Below, in pieces: positions 321 to 13,549 of a stretch of DNA of 64,000 nt. Made by a program: the position numbers and the translations under genes. The notes beneath the pieces were generated by a model. That model ran no database searches. It was not told where the DNA came from and worked only from the letters and a program-made list of their open reading frames with translations. The DNA comes from Bacteroidota bacterium (GTDB lineage: Bacteria; Bacteroidota; Rhodothermia; Rhodothermales; JANQRZ01), in contig JBCDKT010000004.1 in assembly GCA_038746285.1 (NCBI GenBank), positions 62,001 through 126,000 on the forward strand. Reading direction: 5' to 3'. Numbering within the stretch: the first letter of the stretch is position 1; each line of letters opens with the position of its first letter.

Positions 321-602
321 CTACCCCGTCACCTCGACGCCGCGCCAGAAGGCGACGTGGTCTTTGATCTCGGCGGCGGCGTCCTTCGGGTCGGGGTAGA
401 ACCACGCGGCGTTCTCGTTGGTCTCGCCGCCGGCCTCGACGGTGTAGTAGCTCGCGGTGCCCTTCCAGGGGCAGGTGGTGTGGTGGCTGGTCTCGCGGAA
501 ATGCTCGCGCTTCAGCGCGCTGGGCGGGAAGTAGTGGTTGCCTTCGATGACGACCGTGGCGTCGCTCTCGGCGAGGATGGTGCCGTTCCAGGTGGCTTTC
601 AT
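321..602 (-). CDS. DUF427 domain-containing protein
   Basis: A 93-residue protein covering essentially one DUF427 domain: MKATWNGTILAES at the start, then YFPPSALKREHF, a TTCPWKGTASYYTV core and AAWFYPDPKDAA near the end. These are typical family positions. An ATG 60 bases further upstream is in frame, but the extra residues match nothing in the family, so the MKATW start is preferred. The molecular function of DUF427 is not established; members are small single-domain cytoplasmic proteins. It lies 66 bases downstream of the small encapsulin-like gene on the same strand and may be co-transcribed with it. Confidence 0.85.
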   Translation of the reverse strand: MKATWNGTILAESDATVVIEGNHYFPPSALKREHFRETSHHTTCPWKGTASYYTVEAGGETNENAAWFYPDPKDAAAEIKDHVAFWRGVEVTG

Positions 603-668: not shown

Positions 669-956
669 TTAGACCCGCACGCCGCGGACGCCGTCGGCGA
701 GGTCGCCGGGAGCGGGGAGCACGCAGACGGTGTCGGCGCGGAACGGGTCGAGGACGATCGTGAGGTACTGGTACGTCTCGAAGCGGCCCGGCGTTCGGTT
801 GAACTGCCGGGCGATGGCGTCGCAGAGCATCCCGTACGCGGCCGGCCCGACGAGGACCGTGCGCGGCTCCAGGCCCTCGTGCTGCAGGGCGCGGAGGCCC
901 TCGTCGATGGAGGCGAGCACGGTGTCCGGCGTGGCGGTGGTTTCGGTGACGGTCAT
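669..956 (-). CDS. Small protein resembling Family 4 (A-domain-only) encapsulin shell protein
   Basis: A 95-residue protein without signal peptide. An N-terminal helix (about residues 13-28, SIDEGLRALQHEGLEP) leads into a strand and loop (RTVLVGPAAYGMLCDAI, 32-48). A second alpha/beta part follows (TYQYLTIVLDP, 61-71), then VCVLPAPGDLADG (78-90). The order 'helix, G(L/F)xP, ILxGxxAYxxL, later strands and a GxxxG-type end' is what I recall for the truncated HK97-fold A-domain proteins called Family 4 encapsulins. This is recognition by pattern from memory, not a search. If right, many copies would form a shell or pore-like assembly around a partner enzyme; DUF427 downstream and the divergent hydrolase are the only neighbours. 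Alternative: an unrelated small hypothetical protein. Confidence 0.5.
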   Translation of the reverse strand: MTVTETTATPDTVLASIDEGLRALQHEGLEPRTVLVGPAAYGMLCDAIARQFNRTPGRFETYQYLTIVLDPFRADTVCVLPAPGDLADGVRGVRV

Positions 957-961
957 GGGAA

Positions 962-1064
962 TGTCGAGCGGCGAGTGATGAATGTCGAGTGGTGGGTGGC
1001 GAAGAGCGAGTGGGCAGCGGGATATTAACCACTCGACCCTCGCCCTTCGACCCTCGCCAATCGC
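962..1064. repeat. Inverted heptamer array between divergent genes (element A)
   Basis: Left arm 962-1017 is eight 7-mers in register (TGTCGAG, CGGCGAG, TGATGAA, TGTCGAG, TGGTGGG, TGGCGAA, GAGCGAG, TGGGCAG). Right arm 1030-1064 is five (CACTCGA, CCCTCGC, CCTTCGA, CCCTCGC, CAATCGC), complementary in consensus. The right arm ends 3 bases before the hydrolase ATG. The left arm begins 5 bases before the ATG of the gene on the other strand, so the pair fills the whole divergent promoter region. Confidence 0.75.
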
Positions 1065-1067
1065 AAG

Positions 1068-1919
1068 ATGCAGCACGACGCTGGCACGTTCCGCACGGAC
1101 GACGGCCTCACCCTCGCCACGCGCCGCTGGGTGCCCCACGACCACCCGAAGGCGGCCGTCGTGATCGTCCACGGCATCGCCGACCACAGCGGGCGCTTCG
1201 CCCACGTCGCGGCGCACCTGATGCTGAGCGACTACGAGGTCTACGCCTTCGACCTGCGCGGGCACGGGCGCTCCGAGGGCGAGCCGCGCGCCTACGTCGA
1301 GTCGTTCGACGCCTACGTCGCCGACCTCGGGCTCTTTCTGGAGCACGTCCACGAGGCGGCCGCGAAGCCGGTCTTCCTGCTCGGCCACTCGCTCGGGGGC
1401 CTGATCGCGGCGCGCTACGTCGCCCTGTACGGCACCGGCGGCCTGGCTGGCCTCCTCCTGTCGTCGGCCGCGCTGCGCATCCCGGCCGACCTCTCCCCGG
1501 TCCTCCAGAAGCTGGCCGGCACCGTCAGCCGCTTCACGCCGACGCTGGCCACCACCAAGCTCAACACGGAGCACCTCTCGCGGGACCCTGGCGTCGTGCG
1601 CGGCTACGAGCAGGACCCGCTGACCTACACCGGCGGCGTGCGCGCCCGCACCGGGGCCGAGACCCTGCGCGTCACGAAGGAGATGCCGAGCCACATCGGG
1701 GCCTTCACGCTGCCGCTCTACCTCTTCCACGGGGCCGCCGACCGCATCACCGACCCCGCCGGCAGCCAGTGGCTCTACGAGCACGCCCCGTCCGAGGACA
1801 AGACCTTCAACCTCTACGACGACCTCTACCACGAGACGATGAACGAGCCCGAGCGACACGTCGTGCTCGGCGACCTCGTGGCCTGGCTCGACGCCCACAC
1901 CGGGGACGCCGGCCCCTGA
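1068..1919 (+). CDS. Alpha/beta hydrolase, monoacylglycerol lipase / lysophospholipase type
   Basis: A 283-residue cytoplasmic hydrolase of the serine aminopeptidase S33 / monoglyceride lipase group. The HG oxyanion motif is at 35-36 (VIVHGIADH) and the FDLRGHGRSEG motif at 61-71. The nucleophile elbow GHSLGG has Ser108, the acid is probably Asp225 (FHGAADRIT) and the base His255 (DLYHETMNE). These match the lipase pattern in order and spacing, and the length is usual for the family. The substrate is most likely a monoacylglycerol or another small ester, but this cannot be fixed from sequence. It is transcribed divergently from the encapsulin-like gene and followed by a tandem repeat and a hairpin. 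Confidence 0.9.
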   Translation: MQHDAGTFRTDDGLTLATRRWVPHDHPKAAVVIVHGIADHSGRFAHVAAHLMLSDYEVYAFDLRGHGRSEGEPRAYVESFDAYVADLGLFLEHVHEAAAKPVFLLGHSLGGLIAARYVALYGTGGLAGLLLSSAALRIPADLSPVLQKLAGTVSRFTPTLATTKLNTEHLSRDPGVVRGYEQDPLTYTGGVRARTGAETLRVTKEMPSHIGAFTLPLYLFHGAADRITDPAGSQWLYEHAPSEDKTFNLYDDLYHETMNEPERHVVLGDLVAWLDAHTGDAGP

Positions 1920-2055: not shown

Positions 2056-4626
2056 TTACTTCACCACCACCACCTTGCGGCTGGCGGTGAACGACTCGCC
2101 GGTGAGGCGGACGACGTACGTCCCGCCCGCGAGCGCGGTGCCGTCCAGGCGAAGCGTGTGCGTGACGCCTGCCGGCACGGGCGCGTCGAGGAGCGTCTGG
2201 ACGCGCCGCCCGAGGAGGTCGAGGACCTCGGCGCGGACGGTCTGCGCCTCGCGCACGGCGAAGCGGACCTCCGCCGAGCCGGAGAACGGGTTCGGATAGG
2301 CCGCGTCGAGGCGGTACGCGCCTGCCAGCGTTGCCTCGTCTTCGAGGTCCGTCGGGTTGTCGGTGAAGAAGAAGAGCGCCCACTGGTCGAGCGCGCCGGT
2401 GTCCTGCCCGGCCCCGTCGCAGACGCTGAGCGTCCACGTCCCCTGCGGGTCCTCGCCCGCGAAGTCCGAGAGGGGGTCCACGCCGTTCGTGCCGGGCTCG
2501 CCCTGCTCGGTCTGGCCTTCGATTTCGAAGAACGGAGCGCCAGGATCGTGAGAGCCACCCGACCCGAAGATGCCCGCCGCGCCCGTGTCGCTGAAGAGCG
2601 CGTCAAGGTTCGGTGCGTCCGACCCGAAACTGCCTGTCCCGGCCCGGTCGAGGAGGCTGACGACGGTCCCCTCGGGGCTTTCGAGCAGCAGCCGGAGGTC
2701 GCCCCGGTACGTGTGCTCGATCACCGCCCCGACTTTCAGCGAGCCCAGGGCGAAGCTGTCCGCCACGTCGATGCTGCTGGTCTGGAAGTTGGGGCAGCCG
2801 TCGTCGCTGATGGCGAGGCCCGTGTCGTTGGTGTAGAAGAAGTCCGGCGCGATGAAGATGTTGAGGGTCACGCTGGGGCGGAGCGTGAACGCCAGGCTCG
2901 GGTGCTCCACCTGAGCCTCGTTCTCGAGCGCACCGCCCGGAGCGTTTTCGTCCACCGTCACGTCGAACGAGAGCGTCTCCGAGCCGCCGTCGGCCACGTC
3001 GACCGTCCAGGTGACGGTGCCGCCTTCTTCGCCGGCCTCGCCGAGCGAGGCGCTCAGGTTGCCGGCGTAGGCCAGGCCCTCGGGAAGTACGTTCTCGAAC
3101 ATCACCGTTTCGCCGGTCTCGGTGCCGGCGTTGCGAAGCTGCACCGTGATGGTCGTCGTCTCGCCGGGCGCGACGGAGACGGGGTCGGCCGTCATCGAGG
3201 CGGCGAGTTGGATCGGCCCGGGCGGGTTGCCGGCCTCCATGCCGTCGATGAACAGGGCGCCGGTGTTGCCGGGATCGAGGAAGGCCTCGGCCCCGGTCGT
3301 CATGTTGCGCGCCATGCGGCCGTACCAGTCGGCGGTCTGGCTCGTGCACGACGCGAAGCCGCCCGAGAGCTGGCCGACGACGCGCTTCTCGGGGCTGAAC
3401 AGCGGCGAGCCCGAGGAGCCACCCTCGGTCGTGCCGAGGTCCCAGTCGTCGACCTTGAGGTGGGTGCCGGCGGGGTTGCCCGAGCTGCCCAGGTAGGAGT
3501 CAATGGAGGTGGGCTGGTTCTCGAACGAGATGCGCTTCTCCTCGACGCCGGGGTGGTGGATGGCGATCGCGCTGGCCGTGGCCTGGTCGCGGCGGTCCCA
3601 GCCGTTGAGGTAGACGCTGTACTCCGGCGGGATCGGGTCATCGGTCTCGACAATCGTCCAGTCGGGGCCGCCGGAGGTGCCGCCGCCGGAGGTGTCCATG
3701 AACATCACGCCGGAGGAGAACTGGTCGCGCGGGCCGTCGCCGGGGCCGCCGCTGGCCGGGGAGCCGGGTGTGCGGCACGTCGAGTTCTCGTAGTTCCAGT
3801 AGATCACCGTGCTGGCGGCGTTCGAGGCGCGGACGCCGCAGTGGTCGGCGGTGAGGAAGAGCGGGCGGCCGTCCATGGCGGTGTTGTTCATCGCCGAGCC
3901 GCTGCAGAAGTCGATGCCGCCCACCGAGTAGGCCCCGACCGAGCGGATGATGTCGCGGAAGCCGTCGCCCTCGGGGCAGACCACGTCGACGTTGCACGAG
4001 CCGGAGCGGGCGAAGTCGGTCTCGTCCCACGTCGCCCGGCTGATGCCGACCGGCCGGTAGGCGTGGTTGACGCGGGCGATCTCAAGCTCGAAGTCGTCGG
4101 CAGCGTACGATTTGGTCCGAGGGAGGTTCAGCTCGACCACGATCTCGTCGCCCCGGATGATGGGCGACCACAGCTCGCCGTGCGCCTCGTTGTCGGCGGC
4201 GGTGAAGGCGCGGATGTGCGGGGCCTCGCCCGCCGGGTAGAGCCAGAGCGCGGCCCCGCCGGGCAGGCGGAACCGGCTGAAGCCGAGGTTGAGCGAGTAG
4301 GCCCCAGCCGAGGCGATGCGGAGCCGCCACAGGCGCGTGCCGTCGGCGAGCGTCTCCCACGTCCCGGTGCCGCGCGTCGAGGCCTCGACCTCGAACGGCT
4401 CGGCGAAACGGAGCGGGGCCGCCTTGCCGTCGGCGCGGGCCGCGTCGCGGGCGACGAGCGCGTCGTTGTTGACGGCAGGCATGGTGAGGACAGGGACGCT
4501 GCCGAGGGCCTGCGCCTCGGCGGCCTCGAACGAAGCGGGGCGGTCAGCGGCGTGCTGGGCCTGGACAGGGAGGGCGAGCGCGAACGTGCACGCTAGAGCG
4601 AACAAGAAGCGGTAACGGGGGGACAT
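2056..4626 (-). CDS. Secreted trypsin-fold serine protease, lysyl-endopeptidase-like, with P-domain and T9SS sorting domain
   Basis: Starts at MSPRYRFLF, which gives a clean signal peptide (ALALPVQAQ cleavage region); 856 residues. The protease core carries His262 (LFLTADHCG), Asp322 (GGPDWTIVE) and Ser405 in TTEGGSSGSPLF. These are the hallmarks of Achromobacter lysyl endopeptidase-type proteases, with several Cys for disulfides. After it come a DUF11/CARDB-like beta domain (about 475-580), a proprotein-convertase P-domain-like region (about 590-740; TYRGDLRLLLESPEGT, QGTWTLSVCDGAG) and a C-terminal T9SS sorting domain (YPNPFSGSAEVRF ... LLGRRV ... GGTYVVRL). It likely cleaves extracellular protein, probably after Lys, and is exported through the outer membrane. 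An upstream in-frame ATG would spoil the signal peptide. Confidence 0.9.
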   Translation of the reverse strand: MSPRYRFLFALACTFALALPVQAQHAADRPASFEAAEAQALGSVPVLTMPAVNNDALVARDAARADGKAAPLRFAEPFEVEASTRGTGTWETLADGTRLWRLRIASAGAYSLNLGFSRFRLPGGAALWLYPAGEAPHIRAFTAADNEAHGELWSPIIRGDEIVVELNLPRTKSYAADDFELEIARVNHAYRPVGISRATWDETDFARSGSCNVDVVCPEGDGFRDIIRSVGAYSVGGIDFCSGSAMNNTAMDGRPLFLTADHCGVRASNAASTVIYWNYENSTCRTPGSPASGGPGDGPRDQFSSGVMFMDTSGGGTSGGPDWTIVETDDPIPPEYSVYLNGWDRRDQATASAIAIHHPGVEEKRISFENQPTSIDSYLGSSGNPAGTHLKVDDWDLGTTEGGSSGSPLFSPEKRVVGQLSGGFASCTSQTADWYGRMARNMTTGAEAFLDPGNTGALFIDGMEAGNPPGPIQLAASMTADPVSVAPGETTTITVQLRNAGTETGETVMFENVLPEGLAYAGNLSASLGEAGEEGGTVTWTVDVADGGSETLSFDVTVDENAPGGALENEAQVEHPSLAFTLRPSVTLNIFIAPDFFYTNDTGLAISDDGCPNFQTSSIDVADSFALGSLKVGAVIEHTYRGDLRLLLESPEGTVVSLLDRAGTGSFGSDAPNLDALFSDTGAAGIFGSGGSHDPGAPFFEIEGQTEQGEPGTNGVDPLSDFAGEDPQGTWTLSVCDGAGQDTGALDQWALFFFTDNPTDLEDEATLAGAYRLDAAYPNPFSGSAEVRFAVREAQTVRAEVLDLLGRRVQTLLDAPVPAGVTHTLRLDGTALAGGTYVVRLTGESFTASRKVVVVK

Positions 4627-4708
4627 GCCGGTGCAGGGTTGGGTGAAGGAAAACGCCGGAATATCACGCATTTCCCCCCGATCTCCAAACCTGCCCTCTG
4701 CCGTCGCC

Positions 4709-7479: not shown

Positions 7480-9213
7480 TCAGCGCACGACGCTCAGGCG
7501 CTGCACTACCGCACCTGCTGCTGTTTCGGCCCGGACGATGTAGAGACCGGACGGCAACGTACGCGACGCAAAGGCGAAGCTGTGCTCACCGACCGCGAGC
7601 GGTCCGTCGTGGAGCACGGCCACGCGGCGGCCGAGGGCGTCGTGGACCGACACGGTCGCCTCGCCCGCCTCAGGCACCGAGACGAGGACGCGGGCCTCCG
7701 ACGCCGTCGGGTTCGGGTAGAGCGCGAGCCCGGCCGCCCCCGCCGTCGGCGACGGGGCTACCGAGACCGGGTTGTCGCCGTAGCGCGCGACGAAGGCGTC
7801 CTCGAACCCGAGCGCCGACACGTCCGGCGTGCCGTCCTCGGTGAAGTCGGCGTCGGCGACGAAGCGGCCGGTGACGAAGGCGTTGCCCGCGGCGTCGACG
7901 GCGACGCTGTAGGCCCGGTCGTCCTCGGGGCCGCCGGCCTGGCTGACCTTCACGAGCGTGCCTGCGGCGTCGTACTCGGCCACGAAGATGTCGTTGACCC
8001 CGAGGCTCGTCACGTCGGCCGTGCCGTCCTCGTCGAAGTCGGCTCCGGCCTGGAAGCGGCCGACGAGGAAGATGTTGCCCGCGACATTGGCGTCGATGCC
8101 CTCGCCCCGGTCGCTGGCGGCGCTACCGGCGCGGCGGAGCCAAACGAGCTCGCCCGCGGCGTCGTAGTAGGCGAGGAAGATGTCGCGGTCGCCGGCGCTC
8201 GACACGTCGGGCGCGCCGTCGCCGTCGAAGTCGGCGTTGATCTGGAAGTAGCCGGTGACGTAGGCCCCGCCGGCACCGTCTGAGGCCACATCGTAGCCGT
8301 AGTCGGTGCTGATGCCGCCCGCGCTGCGGACCCACACGAGGTTGCCCTCGCCGTCGTAGCGGGCGGCGAAGATGTCCTGCTCGCCGGCACTCACCACGTC
8401 AGCCGCACCGTCGCCGTCGAAGTCGACGCTCTCGCGGATCTGGCCGGCGACGACCACGCCGCCGAGGCCGTCCACGGCGATGTCGTTGCTCACGTCGTCG
8501 CGGCTGCTGCCGGCGCTGCGGACCCAGAGGAGCTCGCCGTCACCGTCGTACCGGGCCACGAAGACGTCGAAGCTGCCGGCCCCGGAGACGTCTGCGACGC
8601 CGTCGCCGTCGAAGTCGGCGTCGTCGATGAAGGTGCCGGTGACGAAGGCCCCGCCCTCGCCGTCGGGGACGACGCCGTAGGCGCGGTCGAAGATCTCTCC
8701 GCCGGCGTCGCGGACCCAGAGGAGCTCGCCCTCGCTGTCGTAGCGGGCCAGGAAGATGTCGTTCGCGCCGGCGCTGAATACGTCGGGCGTGCCGTCGCCG
8801 TCGAAGTCGGCCCCCTCGCGGAACTGGCCGGCGAGGTAGGCCCCGCCCTCCCCGTCCGAGGAGACGGCGTAGGCAATGTCGAAGCCGGCGCCGCCGGCGC
8901 GGCGGCCCCAGAGGAAGTTGCCGTCGCCGTCGTAGCGGGCGATGAGGATGTCGCCGCTGCCGGCGCTCGTCAGCTCGCCCGTGCCGTCGCCGTCGAAGTC
9001 CATGCTGGCGAAGAAGTAGCCCGCGATGAAGGACCCGCCGGCCCCGTCGGTGGCGATGCCGTAGGCTATCTCCTGGCTGGTGCCGCCTGCCCGCTCGACC
9101 CACTCTGCCTGCGCGAGCGCCTCGGCCGAGACGAGCAGCAGGGCGAGGGTGAGCAGCCACACCGGTGCCGGGCGGCGCGAGGAGCGGGCGGAAGGTGTGT
9201 ATCGGTCGATCAT
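7480..9213 (-). CDS. Secreted SBBP-type beta-propeller protein with T9SS sorting domain
   Basis: A 577-residue protein. It has a signal peptide (PVWLLTLALLLVSAEALAQA) preceded by an Arg-rich n-region. Seven consecutive 64-residue repeats follow (from Trp38 to about 480). Each has the form W(V/L)RxAGG...D..AY.....DG.GG.(Y/F)(V/L)(T/A)G.F....DFDGDG..DV.SAG..DIF.ARYD..G.L. The DxDxDG cores look able to bind calcium. Seven repeats fit a seven-bladed beta-propeller. The C-terminus (LYPNPTASEARVLVSV ... DALGRRV ... LPSGLYIVRAE) is a T9SS sorting domain. It probably acts outside the cell in adhesion or binding; no catalytic motif is seen. Confidence 0.88.
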   Translation of the reverse strand: MIDRYTPSARSSRRPAPVWLLTLALLLVSAEALAQAEWVERAGGTSQEIAYGIATDGAGGSFIAGYFFASMDFDGDGTGELTSAGSGDILIARYDGDGNFLWGRRAGGAGFDIAYAVSSDGEGGAYLAGQFREGADFDGDGTPDVFSAGANDIFLARYDSEGELLWVRDAGGEIFDRAYGVVPDGEGGAFVTGTFIDDADFDGDGVADVSGAGSFDVFVARYDGDGELLWVRSAGSSRDDVSNDIAVDGLGGVVVAGQIRESVDFDGDGAADVVSAGEQDIFAARYDGEGNLVWVRSAGGISTDYGYDVASDGAGGAYVTGYFQINADFDGDGAPDVSSAGDRDIFLAYYDAAGELVWLRRAGSAASDRGEGIDANVAGNIFLVGRFQAGADFDEDGTADVTSLGVNDIFVAEYDAAGTLVKVSQAGGPEDDRAYSVAVDAAGNAFVTGRFVADADFTEDGTPDVSALGFEDAFVARYGDNPVSVAPSPTAGAAGLALYPNPTASEARVLVSVPEAGEATVSVHDALGRRVAVLHDGPLAVGEHSFAFASRTLPSGLYIVRAETAAGAVVQRLSVVR

Positions 9214-13135: not shown

Positions 13136-13549
13136 GGGGCGGCGAGCGCGGTGAAACGAGGAGGTGGAATATAAAGTGAGAACGCGGCCGGGTCGGGGCA
13201 CTCGCAGGTCCCTGGACAGAGGACAGAGGACAGAGGACAGAGGACAGAGGACAGAGGACAGAGGACAATTTTATGTCGTTAGCCCTAGAAGGCAAGGGCC
13301 TTCGTAGTTTTCGTGGCTTTTCTTGACTCGCCCACTCTCCCCACGCCTCGGGTGCTGCGGAAACTTTGACGCGTTCTTGGAACCGCTTCCATTGCGCATC
13401 CTGCCTGCGGTTCGTTTCTTGCGAGCTTTGCCCGGCATGCAACAGGACCCCGCGCTTTTTTACTGCGACGGCGGCGCGTGCCTGACGCCGGGCAGGGTCG
13501 CGCTCATCCCCCTTCATCGAGTACGGCAGCACCCATCCCCGAGGAGTCC
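13136..13549. other. 414-base intergenic region upstream of pckA
   Basis: It holds the GGACAGA array (13214-13267), a small GAAGG..CCTTC hairpin (13288-13302) and a comparatively AT-rich stretch (13263-13330) that probably contains the pckA promoter. Short ORFs here have no family features. A GAGGAG ribosome binding site (13541-13546) precedes the pckA ATG. Confidence 0.5.
13214..13267. repeat. GGACAGA heptamer tandem array, 7.7 copies (element E)
   Basis: Seven exact GGACAGA units (13214-13262) plus GGACA. It lies between the divergent GWxTD and pckA genes. The degenerate relative at 10946 shares the unit. Perfect copies suggest that this array is young or prone to slippage. Confidence 0.95.

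Follow-up and report, generated by a model that had tools for sequence, protein, structure and literature searches.

A predicted HK97 A-domain protein of encapsulin family 4C in the Rhodothermales: gene locus, distribution and putative role

The stretch of DNA analysed here (the window; 64,000 nucleotides of contig JBCDKT010000004.1 from a Bacteroidota bacterium of the order Rhodothermales) carries near its start a gene on the minus strand (669..956) with its ATG at 956-954, its stop codon at 671-669 and an intact reading frame of 95 codons, precisely where a preliminary description had placed a protein of 95 residues. This gene, assigned below to family 4C of the A-domain proteins, is followed 66 bp downstream on the same strand by a gene for a DUF427 protein (PF04248, 6.4e-34; 321..602), the likely start of which is at 602, with a longer frame opening at 662. 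On its other side, a 111-bp divergent intergenic region bearing short direct and inverted repeats (957..1067) separates it from a plus-strand gene for a monoacylglycerol-lipase-like α/β hydrolase of the Hydrolase_4 type (PF12146, 2e-75; 1068..1919), and both neighbours are thus those that the preliminary description had named. No sigma-70-like promoter was found in the intergenic region, a result that is uninformative because promoters of the Bacteroidota differ, and no terminator signal was found either. Just past the hydrolase gene, a perfect tandem repeat of 17 bp (CGCACGGTTCGCCGGAT; 4.4 copies) occupies positions 1921-1994, and a strong inverted repeat follows it with hairpin arms at 1991-2009 and 2014-2032.

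Several long frames overlap at 669-956, namely a plus-strand frame at 198-1028, as well as a 447-aa extension of the A-domain frame itself in the upstream direction. In the relatives, stop codons are present in the antisense frame and the homologues start at the ATG used in the window, and by this comparison the competing frames are compositional. The nearest relative, from the same genus, encodes a protein 87% identical to that of the window; 22 of the 34 nucleotide differences between the two genes fall at codon position 3, and the resulting dN/dS is approximately 0.19 (dN 0.065, dS 0.346), with values of approximately 0.03 to 0.32 over nine pairs of relatives. Codon statistics and conservation together indicate that the gene is real, under purifying selection, and selected for its protein. 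That it might instead be a spurious reading frame in GC-rich DNA, as the overlapping frames could suggest, is ruled out for practical purposes by a curated profile match, 35 aligned homologues and a dN/dS well below 1.

The window protein matches, along its entire length (residues 1-95 of 95), the NCBIfam model NF041192 (family 4C encapsulin nanocompartment shell protein) with 113.4 bits (E 3.6e-33), above the curated cut-off of 90 bits, and all of the aligned homologues (35/35) match the same model. Scores for the related models lie under their thresholds: 21.4 bits (E 2.5e-4) for the family 4A model NF041190 and 12.8 bits for the family 4B model NF041191, each with a cut-off of 90 bits, and 21.5 bits (E 2.6e-4) for Pfam ENCP4 (PF08967), with a gathering threshold of 31.4. 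The profile searches assigned the protein to no family of DNA-binding or catalytic proteins, no match to the PHROGs was obtained at E 0.01 for any of the 35 members, and no family 1 encapsulin was found in the window's genome. By profile, then, the protein belongs to the already published family 4C (Andreas and Giessen 2021; PMC8346489), with which it shares length, predicted fold, taxonomic range (Rhodothermus, Rubricoccus and their relatives) and the absence of an assigned enzyme; it differs in location, as the window copy lies between the α/β hydrolase and DUF427 genes and not at a heme locus. The term encapsulin is used here as a family name, and the formation of a shell is putative.

The fold of the protein was predicted by AlphaFold2 from the alignment of 35 homologues, and the model (pLDDT 94.8, pTM 0.85) presents a single A-domain within the range of roughly 95-105 residues typical of the family, with two main helices (13-26 and 38-51) around a β-sheet (strands 2-7, 31-36, 65-69, 76-81 and 91-94). 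The succession of a helix, a G(L/F)xP and ILxGxxAYxxL motif and later strands, from which the preliminary description had recognized the protein, can be traced in it as helix 13-26, the segment EPRTVLVGPAAY, helix 38-51 and strands 65-69 and 76-81. Residues M1, G37, D70, P71, R73, V79 and P81 are invariant across the alignment. The first Foldseek match in the PDB is the family 4A protein PF0899 from Pyrococcus furiosus (2PK8; probability 1.00, TM 0.61, E 3.6e-3), below which phage capsids of the HK97 fold and encapsulins recur with weak individual scores, interspersed with unrelated folds, and many capsid proteins likewise appear among the matches in a viral library. As 2PK8 is also found by sequence from the profile (E 3.3e-4), and as the resemblance of HK97 A subdomains to PF0899 was noted independently (PMC11476376), there is good support, most of it by way of 2PK8, for reading the protein as an HK97 A domain. 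The likeness to PF0899 is nevertheless distant, with an identity of about 20% and a score of only 21.4 of the 90 bits on the 4A model, and the archaeal PF0899 type, unlike the window protein, is encoded with a four-subunit [NiFe] hydrogenase. Classical HK97-fold encapsulins (e.g., that of T. maritima, 7KQ5) share the A-domain part, again with weak Foldseek scores, whereas the window protein has 95 rather than about 265 residues and lacks the N-terminal arm, the E-loop and the P-domain of the complete fold. Profile and prediction together make it nearly certain that this is a family 4C A-domain encapsulin that has no part of the HK97 capsid fold other than the A domain. The preliminary suggestion of a Family 4, A-domain-only encapsulin, with a profile search and a structural comparison as its checks, is therefore confirmed on both counts, the subfamily being 4C and not the archaeal 4A or 4B type.

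Family 4 is the least understood of the encapsulin families. It was defined from 95 sequences, with subfamily 4C named among them; the bacterial members came only from Rubricoccus and Rhodothermus and were described as orphans with no clear enzyme or assigned cargo, heme-biosynthesis genes were enriched near their genes, and all hosts of the family were given as thermophilic anaerobes from hydrothermal vents (PMC8346489). The present survey places this bacterial branch in the order as a whole, including aerobic marine hosts. Of the 114 genomes of the order, 42 contain a match to NF041192 above its cut-off (28 of the 77 of good quality), and these belong to 22 of 49 genera; a sample of 395 genomes from the phylum yielded none outside the order. 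Nine named relatives include Rhodothermus sp., a Rubricoccaceae bacterium, metagenome-assembled Rhodothermales and the bin GSL.Bin22, in which GSL presumably denotes Great Salt Lake. The gene tree largely tracks the host families, a pattern that mostly vertical descent would produce, with poorly resolved deep branches. As the window's own genome encodes COX1 and the oxygen-dependent HemF, and as Rubricoccus marinus is an aerobe from seawater at 50 m (PMC5609423), the description of the hosts as thermophilic vent anaerobes (PMC8346489) is not valid for the entire bacterial branch. Rhodothermus and Rubricoccus also provide the family with cultivable hosts.

To compare the location of the gene across the order, in which host families are coded f1 to f15 (f1 being that of the window), the surroundings of 39 genes, in regions of up to 16 kb, were set against reference neighbours; three further genomes were placed from match coordinates. 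The usual site lies between a gene for an RluA-type pseudouridine synthase, convergent downstream in 25 of the 27 genomes examined outside f1 and f12, and a heme-biosynthesis gene. The latter is a directly divergent hemF in 15 genomes (f3, f6, f7, f9 and f13) and a directly divergent hemH in 8 (f11 and parts of f2 and f5), such that one or the other adjoins the A-domain gene in 23 of the 42 carriers and in 8 of the 10 carrier families; in 7 further genomes of f2 and f5 a same-strand gene for an ABC-transporter ATPase precedes it. Six genomes of f13 and f14 lacking the gene present the corresponding empty site, where rluA directly adjoins hemF in an operon-like run of hemE (where seen), rluA, hemF, hemH and hemL. 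In gene-bearing genomes rluA and hemF are separated by the A-domain gene, which is on the strand opposite to the heme run, and the comparison indicates a single gene either gained or repeatedly lost there. No heme-biosynthesis genes stand beside the window copy, which is on contig C4, while hemE, hemF, hemH and hemL of the same genome are together on contig C81, with neither rluA nor an A-domain gene between hemE and hemF. Over the 114 genomes, carriage of the gene shows no association with hemF (18 genomes with both; Fisher p = 0.70), and a function through hemF as an obligate link is ruled out. Given the empty sites and this absence of association, the heme linkage reflects an old location and does not prove a function; the survey thus gives the usual place of the gene and shows that the place is dispensable.

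The setting differs in two families, that of the window (f1) and f12. The Hydrolase_4 gene is divergent from the A-domain gene in all 12 genomes (12/12) and the DUF427 gene lies downstream on the same strand in 11 of them (11/12), a setting that is conserved but limited to these lineages. The pairing, which the preliminary description had called unusual, is therefore real and maintained in two families, and looks like a lineage-specific location, most other relatives being at the heme-gene locus. The DUF427 gene is possibly an operon partner of the A-domain gene. Co-occurrence of the two across the 114 genomes (p = 0.0009) is confounded by shared ancestry and was on that account set aside as evidence. 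Two DUF427 genes are present in the window's genome (G000:C2:64119-64394 and G000:C4:62342-62602), and likewise in many others of the order, so that the one next to the A-domain gene may have a role of its own. The order-wide distribution, the heme-operon interval with its empty-site comparison, the lineage-specific hydrolase and DUF427 setting, and the prophage homologue described below are new.

The explanation proposed here is that the protein is a soluble, self-associating structural protein that would bind an enzyme and then stabilize or cluster it. Self-association, probably through the two helices that pack HK97 A domains around five-fold axes, is suggested by the five-fold contacts that A-domain helices mediate in HK97 proteins (PMC8346489). 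Binding of a partner is suggested by archaeal relatives co-encoded with enzymes and by a cited complex of GAPDH with an A-domain protein in P. furiosus (PMC8346489). The preservation of the gene over long times, at low dN/dS and with mostly vertical descent, also speaks for the explanation, as does the DUF427 gene found downstream in 11 of the 12 genomes of f1 and f12. In the window's lineage DUF427 would be the first candidate partner, as it is the only conserved same-strand gene directly adjoining the A-domain gene, and in most relatives the conserved neighbours are instead heme-biosynthesis genes; that either DUF427 or the hydrolase is the true partner is, however, improbable. As neighbours vary between lineages and carriage does not follow hemF, no partner is obligatory. 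Against a scaffold stand the small size of the protein (95 aa), from which most of the HK97 fold is missing, and the dimeric state of 2PK8, the one solved relative, in the crystal; shell formation was not demonstrated for family 4 in that study (PMC8346489), and a search of the literature found no demonstration of a lone A domain assembling or of the role of the bacterial branch. The combined explanation of 4C identity and scaffold mechanism is accordingly held at even odds, a compromise between a near-certain identity and a weak mechanism, while a role as scaffold or shell, of whatever kind and taken alone, is given roughly one chance in three.

About equal in likelihood to a scaffold or shell role, and thus equally tentative, is a protein that does not assemble at all: as a monomer or dimer with a retained A-domain fold, it would be a small adaptor or regulator that might modulate an enzyme or the divergent neighbour. 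The crystallographic dimer of 2PK8 (PMC8346489) and the loss of most of the HK97 fold are as expected of such a protein, and the gene is mostly divergent from its upstream neighbour, be it hemF, hemH or the hydrolase, an arrangement seen with local regulators. Nevertheless, the gene is kept while that neighbour changes, and neither a DNA-binding nor a catalytic family is detected in the protein.

A role specific to tetrapyrroles would overlap with the scaffold reading and differ from it in the partner: the protein would hold coproporphyrinogen oxidase or ferrochelatase, or shield porphyrin intermediates, and the window's lineage would have moved the gene. The directly divergent hemF (15/42) and hemH (8/42) across 8 of 10 carrier families, along with the heme enrichment reported near bacterial family 4 genes (PMC8346489), argue for such a role, and yet it is unlikely. 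Genome-level co-occurrence with hemF is absent (p = 0.70), the gene persists without hemF (f2, f5, f11 and f12), no heme gene is directly adjacent in the 12 genomes of f1 and f12 and 7 others, and the heme operon, which runs on the opposite strand to the A-domain gene, stays intact in genomes that lack it.

A link to phages is offered by a second, divergent A-domain-only homologue of 92 aa in one genome of f12 (G053; L100:7991-8269), which bears on a possible origin of the family by truncation of a capsid protein. It scores 23.8 bits (E 1.2e-4) with NF041192 and 20.8 bits with ENCP4, aligns with the 4C profile at an hhalign probability of 97 over 58 columns, and is very divergent from the window protein, at 28% identity. 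Its model has a confident core (mean pLDDT 79 overall) that resembles 2PK8, again the first match and shared in this respect with the window protein, although the alignment included 4C proteins and the model is partly steered by them. A terminase-like gene (phrog_2, 4e-8) is found on one side of the homologue's gene and a portal gene (phrog_156, 2e-32) on the other. The gene preceding that of the homologue matches phrog_23253 (3.5e-74), and one phage record annotates a partial relative of its product as an "abortive infection family protein". The terminase-like, phrog_23253 and portal genes belong to a prophage head-and-packaging module (L100:4369-10977, contig C170), the contig ending inside the prophage. 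A search of phage and viral collections returned no other copy of this homologue.

From these observations, the window protein could be a phage protein that was domesticated, hinders or helps the assembly of capsids, and is kept as a phage defence or a remnant. The homologue between terminase and portal genes, the short phage proteins of matching fold described below and the patchy carriage (42/114) would agree with this, and it is nonetheless highly improbable: no phage genes adjoin the window copy, a stable role in the cell is suggested by purifying selection and by the conserved locations, and no close homologue was found in the viral contigs or phage records searched. A broader version prompted by the same prophage gene, in which the A-domain-only proteins of the order descend from or exchange with those of phages and act on capsid assembly (e.g., as a capsid-interfering defence) rather than building compartments for enzymes, is marginally less probable still. 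In the viral library, short uncharacterized phage proteins of 82-176 aa (A7KUY8, A0A127AW84, A0A6J5PB30 and A0A068EMQ5) match the A-domain model with Foldseek probabilities of 0.98-1.00, which suggests, at the level of predicted structure, that small A-domain-like proteins occur in several phages. Bacillus phage Slash gp69, considered as one of these short viral matches, was rejected as unsupported by sequence (hhalign probability 0.1).

Further along the window, the minus strand at 2056-4671 encodes a probably secreted protein of 871 aa that contains a proprotein-convertase P-domain (PF01483) and matches a Por secretion tail below threshold, and at 7480-9213 (minus strand) a protein of 577 aa with repeated DGDG-type segments, the repeat having a period of 192 bp in the DNA. 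Beyond these, the heptanucleotide GGACAGA is perfectly repeated in 7.7 copies at 13214-13267.
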